Source of the DNA: Bacillota bacterium
GTDB lineage: Bacteria > Bacillota > Clostridia > Peptostreptococcales > Acidaminobacteraceae
Direction: 5' to 3'
DNA length: 64,000 bases
NCBI GenBank assembly: GCA_020161295.1
Contig: JAIUOA010000002.1
Location: 1 to 64,000, forward strand
Positions 952 through 30,112 of this stretch are shown here, piece by piece. A program made the translations under genes and the position numbers. How positions within the stretch are numbered: the stretch's first letter is position 1; each line of letters begins with the position of its first letter. The notes beneath the pieces are model-generated. The model saw only the letters and a list, made by a program, of their open reading frames with translations. It was not told where the DNA came from and did no database searches.

Positions 952-2310
952 TTAGTTAAGCATGAGCAGCGCCCACTTTTTGCTGTGAAAGCGTCTGAAA
1001 ATAATGATGGCAGTGGCGAAAATGGAAAGAATTTCTGCCTGCCAAAGACCTGCCACACCTTGATTGAGTGTGAGGATAAACAAATAGGAGAGTGGAACAA
1101 AAAGTGCCCAGAGTCTTATCATGGTATAAATCATGAGTTTATAGGTATCTCCAGCCCCTCTCAAAGCGCCGCCCATGACGATCATGAAGTTAAGTCCAGG
1201 CTGATTGATCGCCATGTAAACCATTACTGGAATCCCTAAGGCGATGACGGTTTGATCTGTAGTAAAGGCATAAAGTAGTGGAAGTGGAATCGTTACGAAA
1301 AGGATCCCGACGAAAATTCCCCATAGGATGCCTAAGACGGAAGAGGTAAGTCCAATTTCAGATGCTTTATGAATGTCCTTTTCACCGAGAGATTTCCCCA
1401 CCAAGGTGGCCGCTGCGATGCTGACGCCTACAGCTGGCATAAACGATAAGGATTCGATTTGAATGAGGATTCTAAATAATGCCTCTGCATCTGTTTCAAG
1501 CTTAGCGATGAAGACACCCACTACGACGAAAGAAAGCTGCATGAAAAACTGCTCAATTCCGCCAGGGAGGCTGATTCTAAATAATGGACCCAGTATGTGT
1601 CGATCCATTATCCATTTGGCTTTTAGTTTGATCATGGAATTCTTAACATAGAGGACATAGATATAAATCGCTGTTGCGACGATTCTCGATAGTGAGGTTG
1701 ACAGAGCAGCCCCCGCTATGCCCATTTCGGGAAAGATGCCCCATCCTGTGATGAGAACGTAGTTGCCGAGGATATTCAGGAGATTTGCAAAACCTGTAAT
1801 CCACATGGGTGTTTTCGTATCACCGGAGCCCCTTAATATGGAAGCGAAAGCGAACGAAAGGAACATGGGCACAAATCCGATTAGGATGTAATTAAAATAG
1901 AGTATCGCGTCTTCGAATATTTTAGGTTCAATCTCATAGATTCTGAATATATCTTCTTTAAAGACGAACGCCAAACCCATGACACCTAGACCAATCAACA
2001 GGTTGAGAACGACGTTTTGCTCTGCAATATGCTTCATTTTATGGGAGTCTTTTTCACCATAGGCTCTGGAAATCATGGCCACTGCACCGGTGTTAAAGGC
2101 AGAGAAGGTGAAAATCAAAAAGTACATGATTTGGTTCGAGAAACCAACCGAAGCGATGGCTCCGGATCCAATCATTTGTCCGATCATGATCATATCAGCG
2201 ACGCCGAGTAGGGTGTTAAGCCCCATTTCTATGATGGCAGGAGCCGCCATAGCGAGAATCGCTAAGATGAGCGCCTTTTTACCTGTTAGCTTTTCAAATA
2301 GTTTTTGCAT
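952..2310 (-). CDS. MATE family efflux transporter
   Basis: This 452-residue polytopic membrane protein has about 12 hydrophobic segments and the two-fold repeated organisation of the MATE (multidrug and toxic compound extrusion) family. It carries family-like stretches such as MIMIGQMIGSGAIASVGFSNQ near the N terminus and ILRGSGDTKTPMWI and ALRGAGDTYKLM in the two halves. Proteins of this type exchange Na+ or H+ for cationic drugs or metabolites; the substrate cannot be read from sequence. The ATG at 2310 follows AGGAGA. It is a single gene, convergent with the DsbA-like gene. Confidence 0.9.
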   Translation of the reverse strand: MQKLFEKLTGKKALILAILAMAAPAIIEMGLNTLLGVADMIMIGQMIGSGAIASVGFSNQIMYFLIFTFSAFNTGAVAMISRAYGEKDSHKMKHIAEQNVVLNLLIGLGVMGLAFVFKEDIFRIYEIEPKIFEDAILYFNYILIGFVPMFLSFAFASILRGSGDTKTPMWITGFANLLNILGNYVLITGWGIFPEMGIAGAALSTSLSRIVATAIYIYVLYVKNSMIKLKAKWIMDRHILGPLFRISLPGGIEQFFMQLSFVVVGVFIAKLETDAEALFRILIQIESLSFMPAVGVSIAAATLVGKSLGEKDIHKASEIGLTSSVLGILWGIFVGILFVTIPLPLLYAFTTDQTVIALGIPVMVYMAINQPGLNFMIVMGGALRGAGDTYKLMIYTMIRLWALFVPLSYLFILTLNQGVAGLWQAEILSIFATAIIIFRRFHSKKWALLMLN

Positions 2311-2353
2311 AATTTCTCCTAGTGTTTACAAATATTACTTCGACTGTCTAAGT

Positions 2354-2359
2354 AGTATA
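2354..2359 (-). promoter_or_regulatory. Extended -10 element for the MATE gene
   Basis: On the minus strand TGC-TATACT lies about 45 bp before the MATE start codon. No good -35 hexamer is present, so this is a weak extended -10 assignment. Confidence 0.35.
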
Positions 2360-2401
2360 GCATAAATGGATTATAAGCAAAATACCAATGGAAGATTATT
2401 T

Positions 2402-2419
2402 ATATCGTGAGCACGATAT
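2402..2419. promoter_or_regulatory. 18-bp perfect palindrome, candidate operator
   Basis: ATATCGTGAGCACGATAT is a perfect inverted repeat placed 46 bp upstream of the broken TspO-family gene and between it and the divergent MATE gene. Its size and place suit a dimeric repressor. The regulator is not identifiable. Confidence 0.45.
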
Positions 2420-2464
2420 GATTATGGGTATTCATGATAATACAATGATTACAAGGAGGTAACC

Positions 2465-2901
2465 ATGGGAATAGCGATGAAACTGACGATACTTTTTTCA
2501 TATGGTTTAATGATCACTTTAAATGCACTTGCGAATATCCTTCCGATCAATGGATTGGGTACGGGTCAGATTTCGGATGGATTACTGTTGCAACCATCGC
2601 AAATGTAACGACTTTGTTGGTTAGTCTGGATTGGAGTGGATTCGGAATATCCAATCAGGTTTGGATGATTATGATTTTAATCATTGGGGCCTTAATCGGG
2701 ATTATTACCATCTATAGACAAAAGGACATACCTTATGGAATGGTGATTATATGGGCTTATGGCGGAATTCTTTTAAAACACCTGTCAGAAACGGGGTTTA
2801 GTCGTGAATATCCACTGGTTATCGCCACCGTTGGTTTTTGTATCGTAGTGATACTGGGGGCTCTACTGAAAGTCTTTAATCGTTTAAGACAAGTAACATA
2901 A
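2465..2901 (+). pseudogene. TspO/MBR-family (tryptophan-rich sensory) protein, internally deleted
   Basis: A strong AAGGAGGT site precedes ATG 2465. The first frame encodes 47 residues containing NALANILPINGLGTGQISD, which resembles the N terminus of long TspO-family membrane proteins, and stops at 2608. A second frame, open from about 2578 to the stop at 2899-2901, encodes WITVATIANVTTLLVSLDW followed by three hydrophobic segments, matching the C-terminal half of the same family. The central part (normally the PxGxxFSxWxxIY region) is absent and the two pieces are out of frame. This is best read as a gene disrupted by an internal deletion of a few hundred bases. The family assignment is from remembered consensus. 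Confidence 0.7.
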
Positions 2902-3036: not shown

Positions 3037-4275
3037 TTATCCTTTATAAAGCATGCGGTCGTACATGTGGACGAAGCCCATTTTTTCGTAGAGTTTTTTA
3101 GCGCGTCCGTTAGGAATATCCACATGGAGAGAAAGATTACCACCCGTTTTGTCAATGGCTTGGTTGATGAGTTCGGTGGCGATACCACGACCTTTGTTTC
3201 CTTTTTTTACCCCGATATAAGCGAGATGGTATGAAGGGATAAAATCTGAAAATCCCATATGTACCACCACGCAGATGCCTTGGATTTCTCCATTATGAGT
3301 TGCTTTAAAGATGAAACCGACATCGATGGCCTTTTGAACGGCATCAGAGGTCTCTTCGATGCTGTCGTGATAAGGCTCAAGGAGTTTACGGACATGTGTA
3401 ACAATTTCTGATTTATCTGTGCTTGGATGCTTTGAGATCTCAGAGATTTCGATGTCGTTCCTTCCATCATTTAAAATGACGATATGGGGACTAGGTAATG
3501 AAGCGCCATTTTCAATTAACGCGGCAAGGGCATAAGCTTCACCAGCACTGATACTTATATTTTCAAGTCTTTTAAGGAGCCTAGCGGCTTCTTTTAATTT
3601 TTCGGTACCGATATCGTAAAGAGTAGCTTTTGTGCTTGCAATCGTTTCTGATAGCGCATCATCATGGGCTAGACGCTTTAAAGTGAGTGAATGCACACCA
3701 CAATTGATCTGCGGAATCTTAACGATTTTCCCGTTAACCCAGCTACGCATTAGCTCGTGGTAGATGCTTTTTAAAGTATAGCCACCATTGATCTGTGTCC
3801 AAATAGTGGCTGGTTCAGATACCCTTTCGAGAATTTCCTCGGTGATTTTCTGGATGGCGAGACTTCTGATGAAGGGCTTCTTCTCCCATTCGGACATTAA
3901 GAAGTATCCTTGAGAAATGGCATATTGTTCAATTTGATCATGCGTGTCCATACTTTGATTTCGCTTTATGGATATCCAATTGATTTCAGGATATTTTTTT
4001 TGAAGGAGCGTGGATTCCTTCGATTTATGCCCATACAGCGTCATCTCTTTTCCTAAAGCGAAATGGGAAATGGATTTTACATATTGCTCAGAACCATAGA
4101 CGAAGATATTTTGGAATCCTTGGTCGTAAGCAAATTGTACCAGAGATTCGGCGATGCGATCGTTCTTATGGCCAGAGGGATTACTGCCTTCCAGTTTTAA
4201 GTAGATTGAATCTATCCCTAAGTGTTTCTCTAAATTTTTCGCCCGGAATAGAGGCGTTTGACCACTTAAATGCAT
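3037..4275 (-). CDS. PLP-dependent lyase-like domain fused to GNAT acetyltransferase
   Basis: The 412-residue protein has two parts. Residues 1 to about 285 resemble a fold-type II PLP enzyme (threonine synthase/tryptophan synthase beta superfamily). It has TPLFRAKNLEKHLGI, then KLEGSNPSGHKNDR with the likely Schiff-base lysine at K37, and a late serine/glycine-rich segment. Residues from about 290 to 412 form a GNAT domain with the acetyl-CoA loop GNKGRGIATELI and the ending LYEKMGFV. The start at 4275 follows AAGGAGGAT. It stands alone, facing away from the TetR operon. The substrate is unknown; the fusion suggests an amino acid or amine that is made or cleaved and acetylated. Confidence 0.7.
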   Translation of the reverse strand: MHLSGQTPLFRAKNLEKHLGIDSIYLKLEGSNPSGHKNDRIAESLVQFAYDQGFQNIFVYGSEQYVKSISHFALGKEMTLYGHKSKESTLLQKKYPEINWISIKRNQSMDTHDQIEQYAISQGYFLMSEWEKKPFIRSLAIQKITEEILERVSEPATIWTQINGGYTLKSIYHELMRSWVNGKIVKIPQINCGVHSLTLKRLAHDDALSETIASTKATLYDIGTEKLKEAARLLKRLENISISAGEAYALAALIENGASLPSPHIVILNDGRNDIEISEISKHPSTDKSEIVTHVRKLLEPYHDSIEETSDAVQKAIDVGFIFKATHNGEIQGICVVVHMGFSDFIPSYHLAYIGVKKGNKGRGIATELINQAIDKTGGNLSLHVDIPNGRAKKLYEKMGFVHMYDRMLYKG

Positions 4276-4475: not shown

Positions 4476-5105
4476 ATGGGAAAACCATTTACTGAAGAAG
4501 AGAGAAGTAAGCTTAGGACACTTATGGTTCAAAATGCGCGAAAGGCGTTTGAATCACAGCCGTTTAACGAAGTAAAGGTCGAACAGATTACGAAGGAAAC
4601 GGGCATCTCAAAAGGCGCGTTCTATACCTTTTATAAATCTAAGGAGGAGCTCTTTATCGACGTCCTTATAATAGTCGAGGAAGAAATGCAACAGCAGATC
4701 ATGCAAAAAATAGCCCGACAGTCTACACTTAGAAAGCAGCTGAAGACCATCCTCATCGAGGCGATCCATACCTTCGAAAAGGGTTATTTATTTAAATCCT
4801 TTGAAGATCCTATCATCCAGGCTGCGATTCTTTCTAAGGCCACTGACGCTCAAAGGGAGCAAATGCTCGTCGCAGACAGGCGCTTTCTCGAGCAGCTTAT
4901 CGCTGATGAAAGCAGTCTAAAGCTAGACAGGGCAACGGCACTTGACCTGTTGAGAAGCGTTTTTTTTATATTACCTGTTAAAGCGCAACTGGAATCACCC
5001 TTTGAAACATTTATCAGTCAGTTTGTATCTGCAATGGTGGATACCATTATACATGAAGAGGCACCCGGCATGGTGGTGCCGAAGGAAGGCAACTATGTGT
5101 CATAA
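4476..5105 (+). CDS. TetR/AcrR family transcriptional regulator
   Basis: The 209-residue protein has an N-terminal TetR DNA-binding domain: RKAFESQPFNEVKVEQITKE, then GISKGAFYTFYKSKEELF as the recognition helix and following turn (to about residue 60). A helical ligand-binding domain follows. It is the first gene of a four-gene operon with an ABC ATPase, its permease and a membrane protein, so it probably represses an exporter that removes its inducer. GGAGGTG precedes ATG 4476. The upstream inverted repeats are the likely operators. Confidence 0.9.
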   Translation: MGKPFTEEERSKLRTLMVQNARKAFESQPFNEVKVEQITKETGISKGAFYTFYKSKEELFIDVLIIVEEEMQQQIMQKIARQSTLRKQLKTILIEAIHTFEKGYLFKSFEDPIIQAAILSKATDAQREQMLVADRRFLEQLIADESSLKLDRATALDLLRSVFFILPVKAQLESPFETFISQFVSAMVDTIIHEEAPGMVVPKEGNYVS

Positions 5106-6057
5106 AGGATTAGAAGCATCATGGAGCATCGAAATTGATCAGTTAACGAAATATTATGGCAAACACATAGGGGTAAAGGATTTATCCATGTCCGTAAGAA
5201 CGGGCGATTTTTATGGGTTTATCGGTCCAAATGGTGCCGGGAAGACCACTGCGATTAAAACACTGGTAAACCTGCTCATCCCGACATCTGGAGAGGTAAG
5301 GATACTGGGTGCCAATACCGCTAAGCACCTCGATAAAATTAAGGACAGAATCGGCTTTATGCCGTCAGAGGTCAATCTCTATGAAGATTTGACGGTGGAA
5401 GGCCTTCTGCAGATGAACAGGAGTTACTATAAGAAACGTGGCGGACAGGTTAAGCAAGATCAAATGAAGGCCTATGAAAAGAAGGTCATCGACTGTTTAG
5501 AAATCGATGTTACGAAGCGTTTTAAAGCGTTATCACTGGGAAACAGAAAAAAAGTTGGGTTTCTAATGTCCATAGCCCATGAACCGGAGGTGCTGATTCT
5601 TGATGAGCCCACTTCTGGTCTCGATCCGCTGATCCAGGATGAGCTGATGAAGCTGCTGAGTGAAAGGCATCAGGCGGGAACGACGATTCTTTTATCCTCC
5701 CATACTTTAAGTGAAGTGGAAAACAACTGTATCACTGTAGGACTCATCAAAGAAGGCCGAATGATCATGCAAGACGATATTTCTAGGCTGAAGCGGATGA
5801 ATCTGAAACACGTTGAGGTTTATATTGACCCAGCTGAACTTCAGAGCCTATTAAACTGGGCGAATAGAATCGGTGCTGTACAATCAGAGCCTGCTAGGAG
5901 CAGTGGTGCCAGTAAGGTCGTTTTATTTAAGACGGCAGCGGCGATTACAGACGTGATGCAAACCCTTTCTCAAGTCGCTACGCGGGATGTGAATATTTTT
6001 GATCCCACTTTAGAGGATTTGTTTATGCACTATTATCAACAGAAAGAGGTGAAGTGA
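5095..6057 (+). CDS. ABC-2 type exporter, ATP-binding protein
   Basis: This 320-residue ATPase has Walker A GPNGAGKTT (about residues 44-52), an atypical signature LSLGNRKKV in place of LSGGQ, and Walker B VLILDEPTSGLDP, followed by a C-terminal accessory domain. The pattern is that of DrrA/CcmA-like subunits. The ATG at 5095 overlaps the end of the TetR gene by 11 bp and follows AAGGAAGG. Earlier in-frame starts would lie deep inside the TetR gene and are not supported. It should power the permease encoded immediately downstream. Confidence 0.9.
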   Translation: MCHKGLEASWSIEIDQLTKYYGKHIGVKDLSMSVRTGDFYGFIGPNGAGKTTAIKTLVNLLIPTSGEVRILGANTAKHLDKIKDRIGFMPSEVNLYEDLTVEGLLQMNRSYYKKRGGQVKQDQMKAYEKKVIDCLEIDVTKRFKALSLGNRKKVGFLMSIAHEPEVLILDEPTSGLDPLIQDELMKLLSERHQAGTTILLSSHTLSEVENNCITVGLIKEGRMIMQDDISRLKRMNLKHVEVYIDPAELQSLLNWANRIGAVQSEPARSSGASKVVLFKTAAAITDVMQTLSQVATRDVNIFDPTLEDLFMHYYQQKEVK

Positions 6058-9215: not shown

Positions 9216-9244
9216 TTGACTATTTTAGCTAAAATAGCTAAAAT
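9216..9244 (+). promoter_or_regulatory. Promoter with an 18-bp palindromic operator in its spacer
   Basis: TTGACT (9216-9221), a 17-bp spacer and TAAAAT (9239-9244) form the promoter of the Phd-like/Uma2 gene. The perfect palindrome CTATTTTAGCTAAAATAG (9220-9237) fills the spacer, and its half TAGCTAAAA overlaps a direct repeat. Binding there would block RNA polymerase, as expected for autorepression by the Phd-like N-terminal domain of the encoded protein. Confidence 0.65.
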
Positions 9245-9301
9245 AAAATTAGGAAATGCTGGAAATTACTCACGAACATGTACGAGAATGGGAGGTTTAT
9301 T

Positions 9302-10090
9302 ATGAAAATACCCTCGACGGAAATTAAAAACGCTTTTGGAAAATACCTTAGGCTATGTGCAACTGAGCCTGTGTACATCACTAAAAACGGGGTGGTGATC
9401 GCTAAACTATTGAATCATACACCTGAGGATGAGATTATCGAGCAATCAGGAAACCTTAGGAAGGTGTTCGATGTGGATGCCATCGAGCGTCGCGATTATG
9501 ATTATGATCGGGTCGCAGAAGCCATCGAAGTCTATAATCTTGAACGGGTGAAGATGTCATTAGAAGCGTTTAAGCAGATGAATGAGGATGCGACAAATCG
9601 CTATGAGTATATAGACGGCGAGGTCTATCTACTGGGTGCACCTAGTATATTTCATCAGCGTGTGGTTTCACGGCTTCATATTGAGATGGACCGCTATCTC
9701 TCGGGGAAACCATGTGATGTTTTTGAGTCGCCGTTTGATGCGACACTTCTTAGACGGGGAAATAAGGCCTTCACAAACATCGTACAGCCCGATCTACTGG
9801 TGCTGTGCAACTGGCGTTCGGACACAGATGAAACGGGTCATTATAATGGCATCCCGAAACTATTGGTCGAAGTGCTTTCTCCGGGTAATACAAATAAGGA
9901 AATGTTTACGAAGCTCGACCTTTATCGCGATTCGGGGATAGAAGAATACTGGCTCATGGATCCCATAAAAGGCAACGCCATCATCTATCGTTTTGATGAC
10001 TATAAAATCGTAGAAACACGTGCCTATAACCCTAATGATGTCTGCGAATCCATGATTTATCCTGGATTGACCTTTAAAGTGCTAGAATAA
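9302..10090 (+). CDS. Phd/YefM-like antitoxin domain fused to Uma2-type (DUF820) nuclease
   Basis: This 262-residue protein joins two domains. Residues 1-40 (IPSTEIKNAFGKYLRL, then EPVYITKNGVVIAKLL) match the DNA-binding half of Phd/YefM antitoxins. Residues from about 80 on match Uma2/DUF820 proteins of the PD-(D/E)xK nuclease fold. They include YEYIDGEVYLL, the acidic residue in VQPDLLVL, LLVEVLSPGN, and the lysine in FTKLDLYRDSGIEEYWLMDP. The ATG at 9302 follows GGGAGG. Uma2 proteins are common and poorly understood; the fused Phd domain suggests it regulates its own promoter, where an 18-bp palindrome lies. Confidence 0.8.
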   Translation: MKIPSTEIKNAFGKYLRLCATEPVYITKNGVVIAKLLNHTPEDEIIEQSGNLRKVFDVDAIERRDYDYDRVAEAIEVYNLERVKMSLEAFKQMNEDATNRYEYIDGEVYLLGAPSIFHQRVVSRLHIEMDRYLSGKPCDVFESPFDATLLRRGNKAFTNIVQPDLLVLCNWRSDTDETGHYNGIPKLLVEVLSPGNTNKEMFTKLDLYRDSGIEEYWLMDPIKGNAIIYRFDDYKIVETRAYNPNDVCESMIYPGLTFKVLE

Positions 10091-26722: not shown

Positions 26723-27225
26723 CATCATTAGTGATTAGACCAGCAGTAAAAGACGATTATCCAGCAATACTAGAACTCAACGAATCGTTGGTTCATTTTC
26801 TTTCACCCATGGATGAAGCTAAGCTTTCTCATCTACATGAAGAATCAGAACTGTTATATGTCGCTGAGTTATCTGGAAATGTAGAAGCTTTTGCCCTTTG
26901 TATTAGAGAAGGAAAAGATTATGACAGTGTGAACTATACTTGGTTTTCAGAACACTATCCACAGTTTCTGTACGTGGATCGTATCGTCGTTTCTAATAAT
27001 GCACAGGGAAAAGGTTTAGGCGCGGCATTGTATAAGCAGGTCTTTAATCATGCGCAAGAGACAGGTGTTAGTCATGTCACCGCAGAAATCGACATACTGC
27101 CACCTAATCCAGGATCCTTAGTTTTTCATGAGAAATTTGGTTTTAAAGAAGTGGGGCAGCAGGCGGTTGCTGGTGGTAAAAAGCGCGTTTCATTACAAGC
27201 GGTAGAAGTTAAAGCCGAGGATTAA
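26719..27225 (+). CDS. GNAT family N-acetyltransferase
   Basis: The 168-residue GNAT protein has LYVDRIVVSNNAQGKGLGAALYKQVF, with the acetyl-CoA loop QGKGLG, and ends GSLVFHEKFGFKEVGQ. This resembles acetyltransferases of the YhbS/amino-acid type. Its ATG overlaps the cyclase stop codon (ATGA), so it is translationally coupled. The stop codon lies in the terminator hairpin. Confidence 0.85.
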   Translation: MTSLVIRPAVKDDYPAILELNESLVHFLSPMDEAKLSHLHEESELLYVAELSGNVEAFALCIREGKDYDSVNYTWFSEHYPQFLYVDRIVVSNNAQGKGLGAALYKQVFNHAQETGVSHVTAEIDILPPNPGSLVFHEKFGFKEVGQQAVAGGKKRVSLQAVEVKAED

Positions 27226-27237
27226 TCCTCGGCTTTT
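27211..27237. terminator. Terminator overlapping the GNAT stop codon
   Basis: AAAGCCGAGGATT and AATCCTCGGCTTTT form a compact perfect stem, with A and T flanks. Confidence 0.75.
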
Positions 27238-30065: not shown

Positions 30066-30112
30066 AATGAGTTACTTAAGTAACTCATTTCATTTTGGTA
30101 ATAGTATATACT
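30066..30112 (+). promoter_or_regulatory. Class II Crp/Fnr-type promoter with 24-bp palindrome
   Basis: A 24-bp perfect palindrome (30066-30089, half site AATGAGTTACTT) lies before TATACT (30107-30112). The -35 position is poor. With the start point seven bases after the -10 (about 30119), the palindrome centre falls at -41.5, the standard place for class II activation. On the other strand it sits just before the regulator gene's AGGAG site, which suits autoregulation. Confidence 0.7.

Follow-up and report, generated by a model that had tools for sequence, protein, structure and literature searches.

A solitary Phd-Uma2 fusion gene, probably self-repressing, with an operator hexamer that changes with its Phd type

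What kind of genetic unit is a gene that joins, in one reading frame, the DNA-binding half of an antitoxin to a nuclease fold, and that has a palindrome in its own promoter? The gene in question lies in a 64,000-nucleotide stretch of the genome of a Bacillota bacterium (the window). The answer that we favour, at a probability of about 0.8, is a solitary self-repressing gene for a putatively active nuclease, toxin-antitoxin-like in its regulation and not a type II toxin-antitoxin pair. Its grounds, all of them present in the sequences compared, are the domain architecture, the operator sites, their co-variation with Phd type, conservation of the active site and the lack of a recurring partner gene.

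The gene, on the + strand, runs from an ATG at 9302 to a stop codon at 10088-10090 and encodes 262 amino acids. A sequence-only reading had begun its span at 9216; the gene is there, but the stretch from 9216 onward includes the promoter. The features are as follows (L numbers are our handles for loci, G numbers for genomes):

9216 to 9221, + strand: -35 hexamer TTGACT (10/12 consensus, 17-bp spacer; TTGA kept in both close orthologues)
9220 to 9237, no strand: 18-bp perfect palindrome from a palindrome scan, its outer arms not conserved in the orthologues
9226 to 9231, + strand: predicted operator hexamer 1, TAGCTA, in the promoter spacer, aligning with TAGCCA in L059 and L060
9235 to 9240, + strand: predicted operator hexamer 2, TAGCTA, 9 bp downstream and overlapping the -10 hexamer by two bases (motif search and orthologue comparison)
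9239 to 9244, + strand: -10 hexamer TAAAAT (promoter scan; identical in L059 and L060)
9290 to 9295, + strand: ribosome-binding site GGGAGG (from the sequence; GGAGG invariant in three orthologues)
9302 to 10090, + strand: Phd-Uma2 fusion gene, 262 amino acids (open reading frame and Pfam matches)
9305 to 9412, + strand: Phd/YefM-type DNA-binding domain, residues 2-37 (PF02604, E 1.1e-5; model pLDDT about 80-89; Foldseek)
9413 to 9562, + strand: linker, residues 38-87, mostly disordered in the model (pLDDT <50 at 43-79)
9518 to 9535, + strand: linker motif V-x-E73-x-A-x-x-Y78, given from E73 to Y78 (alignment of 89 members)
9563 to 10075, + strand: Uma2 (DUF820/COG4636) PD-(D/E)xK nuclease domain, residues 88-258, with E102, D164, E190 and K204 kept (Pfam, Foldseek)

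Both domains first named by eye, a Phd/YefM domain at residues 1-40 and a Uma2/DUF820 nuclease from about residue 80, were recovered by profile searches. Pfam's PF05685 matches residues 88-258 at E 2.7e-25, with 89.3 bits against a curated cut-off of 27, and no NCBIfam model matches the Uma2 part. At the other end PF02604 matches at E 1.3e-4 when the whole protein is searched, and the N-terminal 56 amino acids alone reach 25.6 bits, below the curated 29.8, with NCBIfam's phd_fam giving this piece 20.9 bits for a cut-off of 20.8. The N-terminus does score against PhdYeFM profiles, where the lack of a score would have told against the sequence-only reading, and both PF02604 and PF05685 are matched at E<=0.01 in 89/89 aligned full-length members (the 92 fusions described below minus three, kept if they had a start codon and >200 amino acids), the best PhdYeFM value being 7.8e-12. 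The Phd assignment is accordingly good but not watertight for the window protein, and firm across the family. In an AlphaFold2 model, built on 17 aligned rows and averaging pLDDT 80.7, two confidently predicted parts flank the disordered stretch. With Foldseek the large part finds the Uma2 structures 6okh, 9y1l, 1wdj and 3ot2 at E 6.7e-14 to 2.1e-7; the small part finds 2odk, a putative prevent-host-death protein, and the RelB antitoxins 9g12 and 3g5o, with probability 0.99-1 yet E 0.05-0.17. The solved Uma2 proteins share the fold and the PD-EXX-K residues, and differ in having chains of about 187-190 amino acids without a Phd half, to which the fusions add both that half and an operator.

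How widespread is the arrangement? Well over a hundred relatives, most of them Clostridia and Bacilli and a few of them spirochaetes, show the same pairing of a Phd-Uma2 gene with an operator. A scan of the class gave a match in 41/391 genomes, and a hand count, resting on 30 fetched loci and further stretches and not on every hit, put the genomes with fusions at no fewer than 16; in a sample of the phylum 186/398 genomes matched, 56 of them with a near-full-profile match (also counted by hand), often in several copies; and among the best 80 of 571 confirmed loci from a scan of named genomes most were from Clostridia and Bacilli and some from Spirochaetes. Within the genus one of three other species has the gene, a patchy distribution. 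Tandem copies were seen at G422:C19:47197-48726 (L238, L248) and G410:C38:20167-21638 (L156, L162).

Once identical Uma2 domains had been dropped, the first set comprised 141 distinct Uma2 open reading frames, 92 of them with a Phd half, which a simple N-terminal pattern divides into types A (62), B (28) and C (2). A quick tree built from the Uma2 domain puts the 90 fusions used together on a single branch (91 rows, support 93), to which only one other row belongs, L128, whose match starts at its contig end; the window gene sits in a clade of three rows, and type B occupies one side of the branch (support 76). Matches over Pfam's cut-off also reveal Uma2 fused to HTH_3, of XRE type (L051, L052, L054), and to RHH_1 (L050); on the tree the XRE-type rows make up a starred branch of their own, and the RHH-Uma2 row has a different position again. 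It seems that Uma2 acquired DNA-binding halves of antitoxin type at least three times. By eye no clear palindrome was found upstream of the XRE-Uma2 and RHH-Uma2 genes.

Text searches of the open literature, as distinct from subscription papers and domain databases, found no description of a Phd-Uma2 fusion. Pfam's site lists architectures of Phd-Uma2 type. The family is ordinary in its parts and, as far as searched, new in their combination and in its operator code.

Is the Uma2 half still a nuclease? For COG4636, PMC551604 describes a PD-EXX-K site with a displaced lysine, and the window protein has D164, E190 and K204 in these places together with E102. All four are invariant in the alignment A1 and nearly so across the 92 fusions. 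In type A they are kept in 62, 61, 61 and 61 of 62 members respectively, with one gap in each of the last three, in type B in 28/28, and they are likewise essentially invariant in Uma2 proteins without a Phd half. The linker is variable except for E73 (88/89 members) and Y78 (82/89), a motif that could dock on the nuclease. The Uma2 part also matches PADLOC's PDLC04832 (PDC-S03) at E 6.9e-46. PDC stands for 'phage defence candidate' in PMC11514479, and PDC-S03 is a single-gene candidate of that kind; its profiles, of 184-207 positions, cover the Uma2 part only, and ‘defence’ is there a candidate label.

No partner gene recurred among the neighbours within 3 kb at the 92 loci, and a separate partner was set aside on that count. 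What does recur is other Phd-Uma2 or Uma2 genes (9/92) and general families (7/92 or fewer). The window gene itself stands next to a lipoprotein-like open reading frame and, downstream and convergent, a SpoU methylase, neither with a PADLOC match. Where a type II toxin-antitoxin system has two genes, an antitoxin and a toxin, there is here one fused gene. The N-terminal domain is probably of the Phd/YefM type found in YefM-YoeB and Phd-Doc, and core-hexamer palindromes at the promoter are common to both; YefM, a Phd-family antitoxin, has TGTACA core hexamers in paired promoter palindromes (PMC4803016). The differences are that the fusion has neither toxin gene nor toxin-binding tail, has a putative nuclease domain in their stead, and is associated with TAGCTA or CGTACG.

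Might it nevertheless be a toxin-antitoxin system within one polypeptide, in which free Uma2 would be toxic to its own cell, the Phd half and the linker motif would restrain it in cis, and proteolysis of the Phd half would release it? Makarova and colleagues (PMC2701414) proposed that Uma2 is probably a solo toxin, seldom associated with antitoxins, and the preservation of E73 and Y78 in an otherwise variable linker, the XRE and RHH fusions and the multiple paralogues per genome would all suit such an arrangement. Against it are the lack of a separate antitoxin gene and of any sign of a plasmid-addiction setting, since none of the 36 plasmid records that matched the protein did so over more than 80% of the query and the single matching phage record matched the Uma2 part only. 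We regard this reading as possible and rather doubtful. Viral carriage was set aside in its turn: the ten loci on viral contigs match only part of the protein, seven the Uma2 part and three the Phd end. A less probable view, and one we think improbable, is that Uma2 is non-catalytic and serves oligomerisation or nucleic-acid sensing in what would be purely a regulator. Some PD-(D/E)xK folds are indeed non-catalytic (PMC551604), and the literature consulted presents Uma2 catalysis as unproven, but the near-invariance of the four active-site residues, with and without a Phd half, argues for a working site.

What, then, of the promoter? The perfect 18-bp palindrome first noticed there, CTATTTTAGCTAAAATAG at 9220-9237, is real. 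The window has three perfect palindromes of at least 18 bp, where 40 dinucleotide shuffles gave 0.35 (at most 2), so that a single one of 18 bp is unusual but not unique. The other two are a 24-bp palindrome at 30066-30089, likely an operator, between a Crp/Fnr-like gene (-) and a ferredoxin-like gene (+), and one of 26 bp at 27211-27236, probably a terminator, at the end of an acetyltransferase-like gene, these genes being named by eye. That the 18-bp palindrome lies exactly between the promoter hexamers is largely right, but its first two bases are also the last two of TTGACT, and it ends one base short of TAAAAT. The promoter match as such is not beyond chance (6 found by the scan against 5.3 expected).

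Comparison with the nearest orthologues is more telling. These are L059, from Clostridia bacterium Kmv40 (77% protein identity), and L060, from Fusibacter bizertensis (72%), and upstream their DNA is no longer alike outside the ribosome-binding site and a block reading TTGA...TAGCYAAAWTRGCTAAAATA; in L060 the hexamer pair reads TAGCCA-AAT-TGGCTA. Because it is this block that is kept, with the -35, the -10 and the hexamer pair but without the outer arms, the conserved unit is the pair of hexamers spaced by 9 bp, and the 18-bp palindrome was rejected as the operator. The expectation of an upstream palindromic operator common to homologues therefore stands, with its unit redrawn as TAGCTA hexamers spaced by 9 bp (or by some 22 bp). 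Around L059 and L060 the tested open reading frames of the window match nothing except the gene itself and one overlapping frame, so the gene's position is not conserved.

The genome to which the window belongs (3.08 Mb, 41 contigs) contains two Uma2 genes, each with an in-frame Phd match at its N-terminal end. Within it TTTTAGCTAAAA occurs at three places, upstream of both Phd-Uma2 genes and inside an open reading frame that, from its sequence, we take to be alanine-racemase-like (alr-like). At the paralogue, L006, the motif sits between TTAGAC and TATAAT, and there an AraC-type HTH gene (L006:2235-2585) overlaps the stop of the fusion gene. TAGCTA-N3-TAGCTA occurs once in this genome, at the window promoter. 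A wider regulon was looked for and rejected: besides the one exact paired site there is one site with a single mismatch, which falls within a locus containing an open frame of 1004 codons. A search of 11 further genomes for TTAGCTA-N3-TAGCTA returned four rows, from 3 genomes and representing three places, all of which, by their coordinates, are upstream of Phd-Uma2 genes. TAGCTA is absent upstream of the remaining three Phd-type genes in the window's own genome. One of them, L003, an ordinary Phd gene with a small RelE-like open reading frame behind it, has CGTACG, the hexamer of the type B fusions, some 43 bp upstream of 1501.

It is across the family that the operator acquires the character of a code. 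With genes having less than 100 bp of upstream DNA dropped, TAGCTA lies within 120 bp upstream of 57/62 type A genes (123 sites, against 6.3 sites in 6.0 genes in shuffles) and within 150 bp of 0/28 type B genes. CGTACG lies within 120 bp upstream of 14/28 type B genes (22 sites, against 1.0 in 0.9 genes) and within 150 bp of 1/62 type A genes. No palindromic hexamer is enriched upstream of 46 Phd-less Uma2 genes. The spacing between TAGCTA sites peaks at 9 bp (19 times), 22 bp (11) and 23 bp (8), about one and two helical turns. A promoter match of 9 of 12 is found in the last 120 bp before 56/62 type A genes, 53 of the 56 also having a site, and 39 type A genes have a site in the interval from the -35 to about +10. 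The rule was fixed before it was applied to a held-out set of 109 Uma2 open reading frames (from 125) with <90% identity to the first set (loci L155 onward, some fetched earlier and not inspected), with the same upstream minimum: TAGCTA preceded 57/62 type A and 0/36 type B genes, CGTACG 22/36 type B genes, and 8 Phd-less Uma2 genes had neither. Homologues thus share an upstream palindromic hexamer, and the absence of one that might have told against the sequence-only reading was not seen. Among the examined loci, which had been picked around Phd-Uma2 genes, 41/41 TAGCTA clusters precede such a gene (37 by script, 4 by reading).

Exceptions there are, exact TAGCTA being absent from 5/62 type A genes in each set and exact CGTACG from about half of type B. 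Among the type A cases L060 has the variant hexamers already given, and the N-terminus is missing from L129; L012 has, by coordinates, a paired site in its genome some 265 bp upstream; of the five in the held-out set two, L188 and L239, resemble type B and escaped the pattern, and a third, L259, has a disrupted N-terminus; L100, L103, L170 and L245 are without explanation. In L129 (about 3919-4010) the paralogue's counterpart from Fusibacter tunisiensis looks decayed, with its operator and the start of its Phd half apparently gone.

How many independent events does the code represent? Collapsed at 70% identity, type A has TAGCTA in 46/49 clusters and CGTACG in none, type B TAGCTA in 0/6 clusters and CGTACG in 5/6. 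With linkage at 50% the two types merge, and type B is one group on the tree, so there was one deep switch between A and B and not many independent ones, which limits what can be drawn from the co-variation. Types A and B also stand side by side within L043 (genes at 1077-1808 (+), 1848-2612 (-) and 4961-5677 (+)), and in the genome concerned, G134, the L042 gene and the two plus-strand genes of L043 have TAGCTA and its minus-strand gene CGTACG. Because a change of Phd type goes with a change of operator, the hexamer is very probably read by the Phd domain itself.

Would a domain that reads TAGCTA steer Uma2 to that sequence, there to cut in a restriction-like or homing-like way? The union of a sequence-reading domain with a nuclease fold invites the thought, but the protein would then cut its own promoter, no methylase or similar partner recurs, and the hexamer is not avoided, being seen 5 times in the window outside the locus against 4.7 expected, and 72 times against 45.8 in 264 kb of type A flanks, where the excess may include neighbouring Phd-Uma2 promoters; we consider such targeting very unlikely. 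Least credible, if only by a little, is that the sites belong to another repressor, a TAGCTA binder like RptR, with the Phd domain doing something else: RptR, as described in PMC12255303, binds TAGCTA in 9-bp direct repeats over the -10 box, but that source presents it as conserved in Gammaproteobacteria, and the change from TAGCTA to CGTACG follows the Phd type of the gene downstream even within G134.

The likeness to RptR deserves a word of its own. RptR represses type I restriction islands (PMC12255303) and has in common with the Phd-Uma2 genes the hexamer and spacing over the -10, a nuclease cargo and autorepression, the last predicted for the present family. It differs in being an unrelated, all-helical protein encoded apart from the nuclease genes, and the resemblance of the operators looks convergent.

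The self-repressing gene that we favour would work as follows. The N-terminal Phd domain would dimerise and bind palindromic TAGCTA hexamers, of which there are two here 9 bp apart; with the promoter spacer and -10 covered, RNA polymerase would be kept off, and we infer from the placement of the sites that the gene is very likely shut off by its own product. Should the protein be lost or diluted, expression would climb until repression set in again. The C-terminal Uma2 domain, its PD-EXX-K site retained, is probably an effector that cuts nucleic acid. The Phd half would stand in for the DNA-binding half of an antitoxin, the toxin-binding C-terminal tail of which would have given way to linker and nuclease. 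More tentatively, these may be a widespread family of one-gene defence nucleases, each with its Phd half as an inbuilt repressor that would also be a sensor. Two codes at least, TAGCTA and CGTACG, would switch with Phd type, the former having converged on the RptR operator, so that copies with different codes might coexist without cross-regulation.

Uma2 proteins are abundant and their structures have been solved, and their function is unexplained. Since a single gene here unites the nuclease with a regulatory half and the DNA site for it, one can ask directly by experiment what releases expression, and from that what Uma2 does. The coexistence of types A and B in L043, each with its own hexamer, is a natural test of cross-regulation, and it is striking that two kinds of repressor of nuclease genes, RptR and the one predicted here, should have TAGCTA in common though they are unrelated. 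How Phd/YefM antitoxins read DNA can be studied on the natural data set that the two Phd types and their two hexamers provide.
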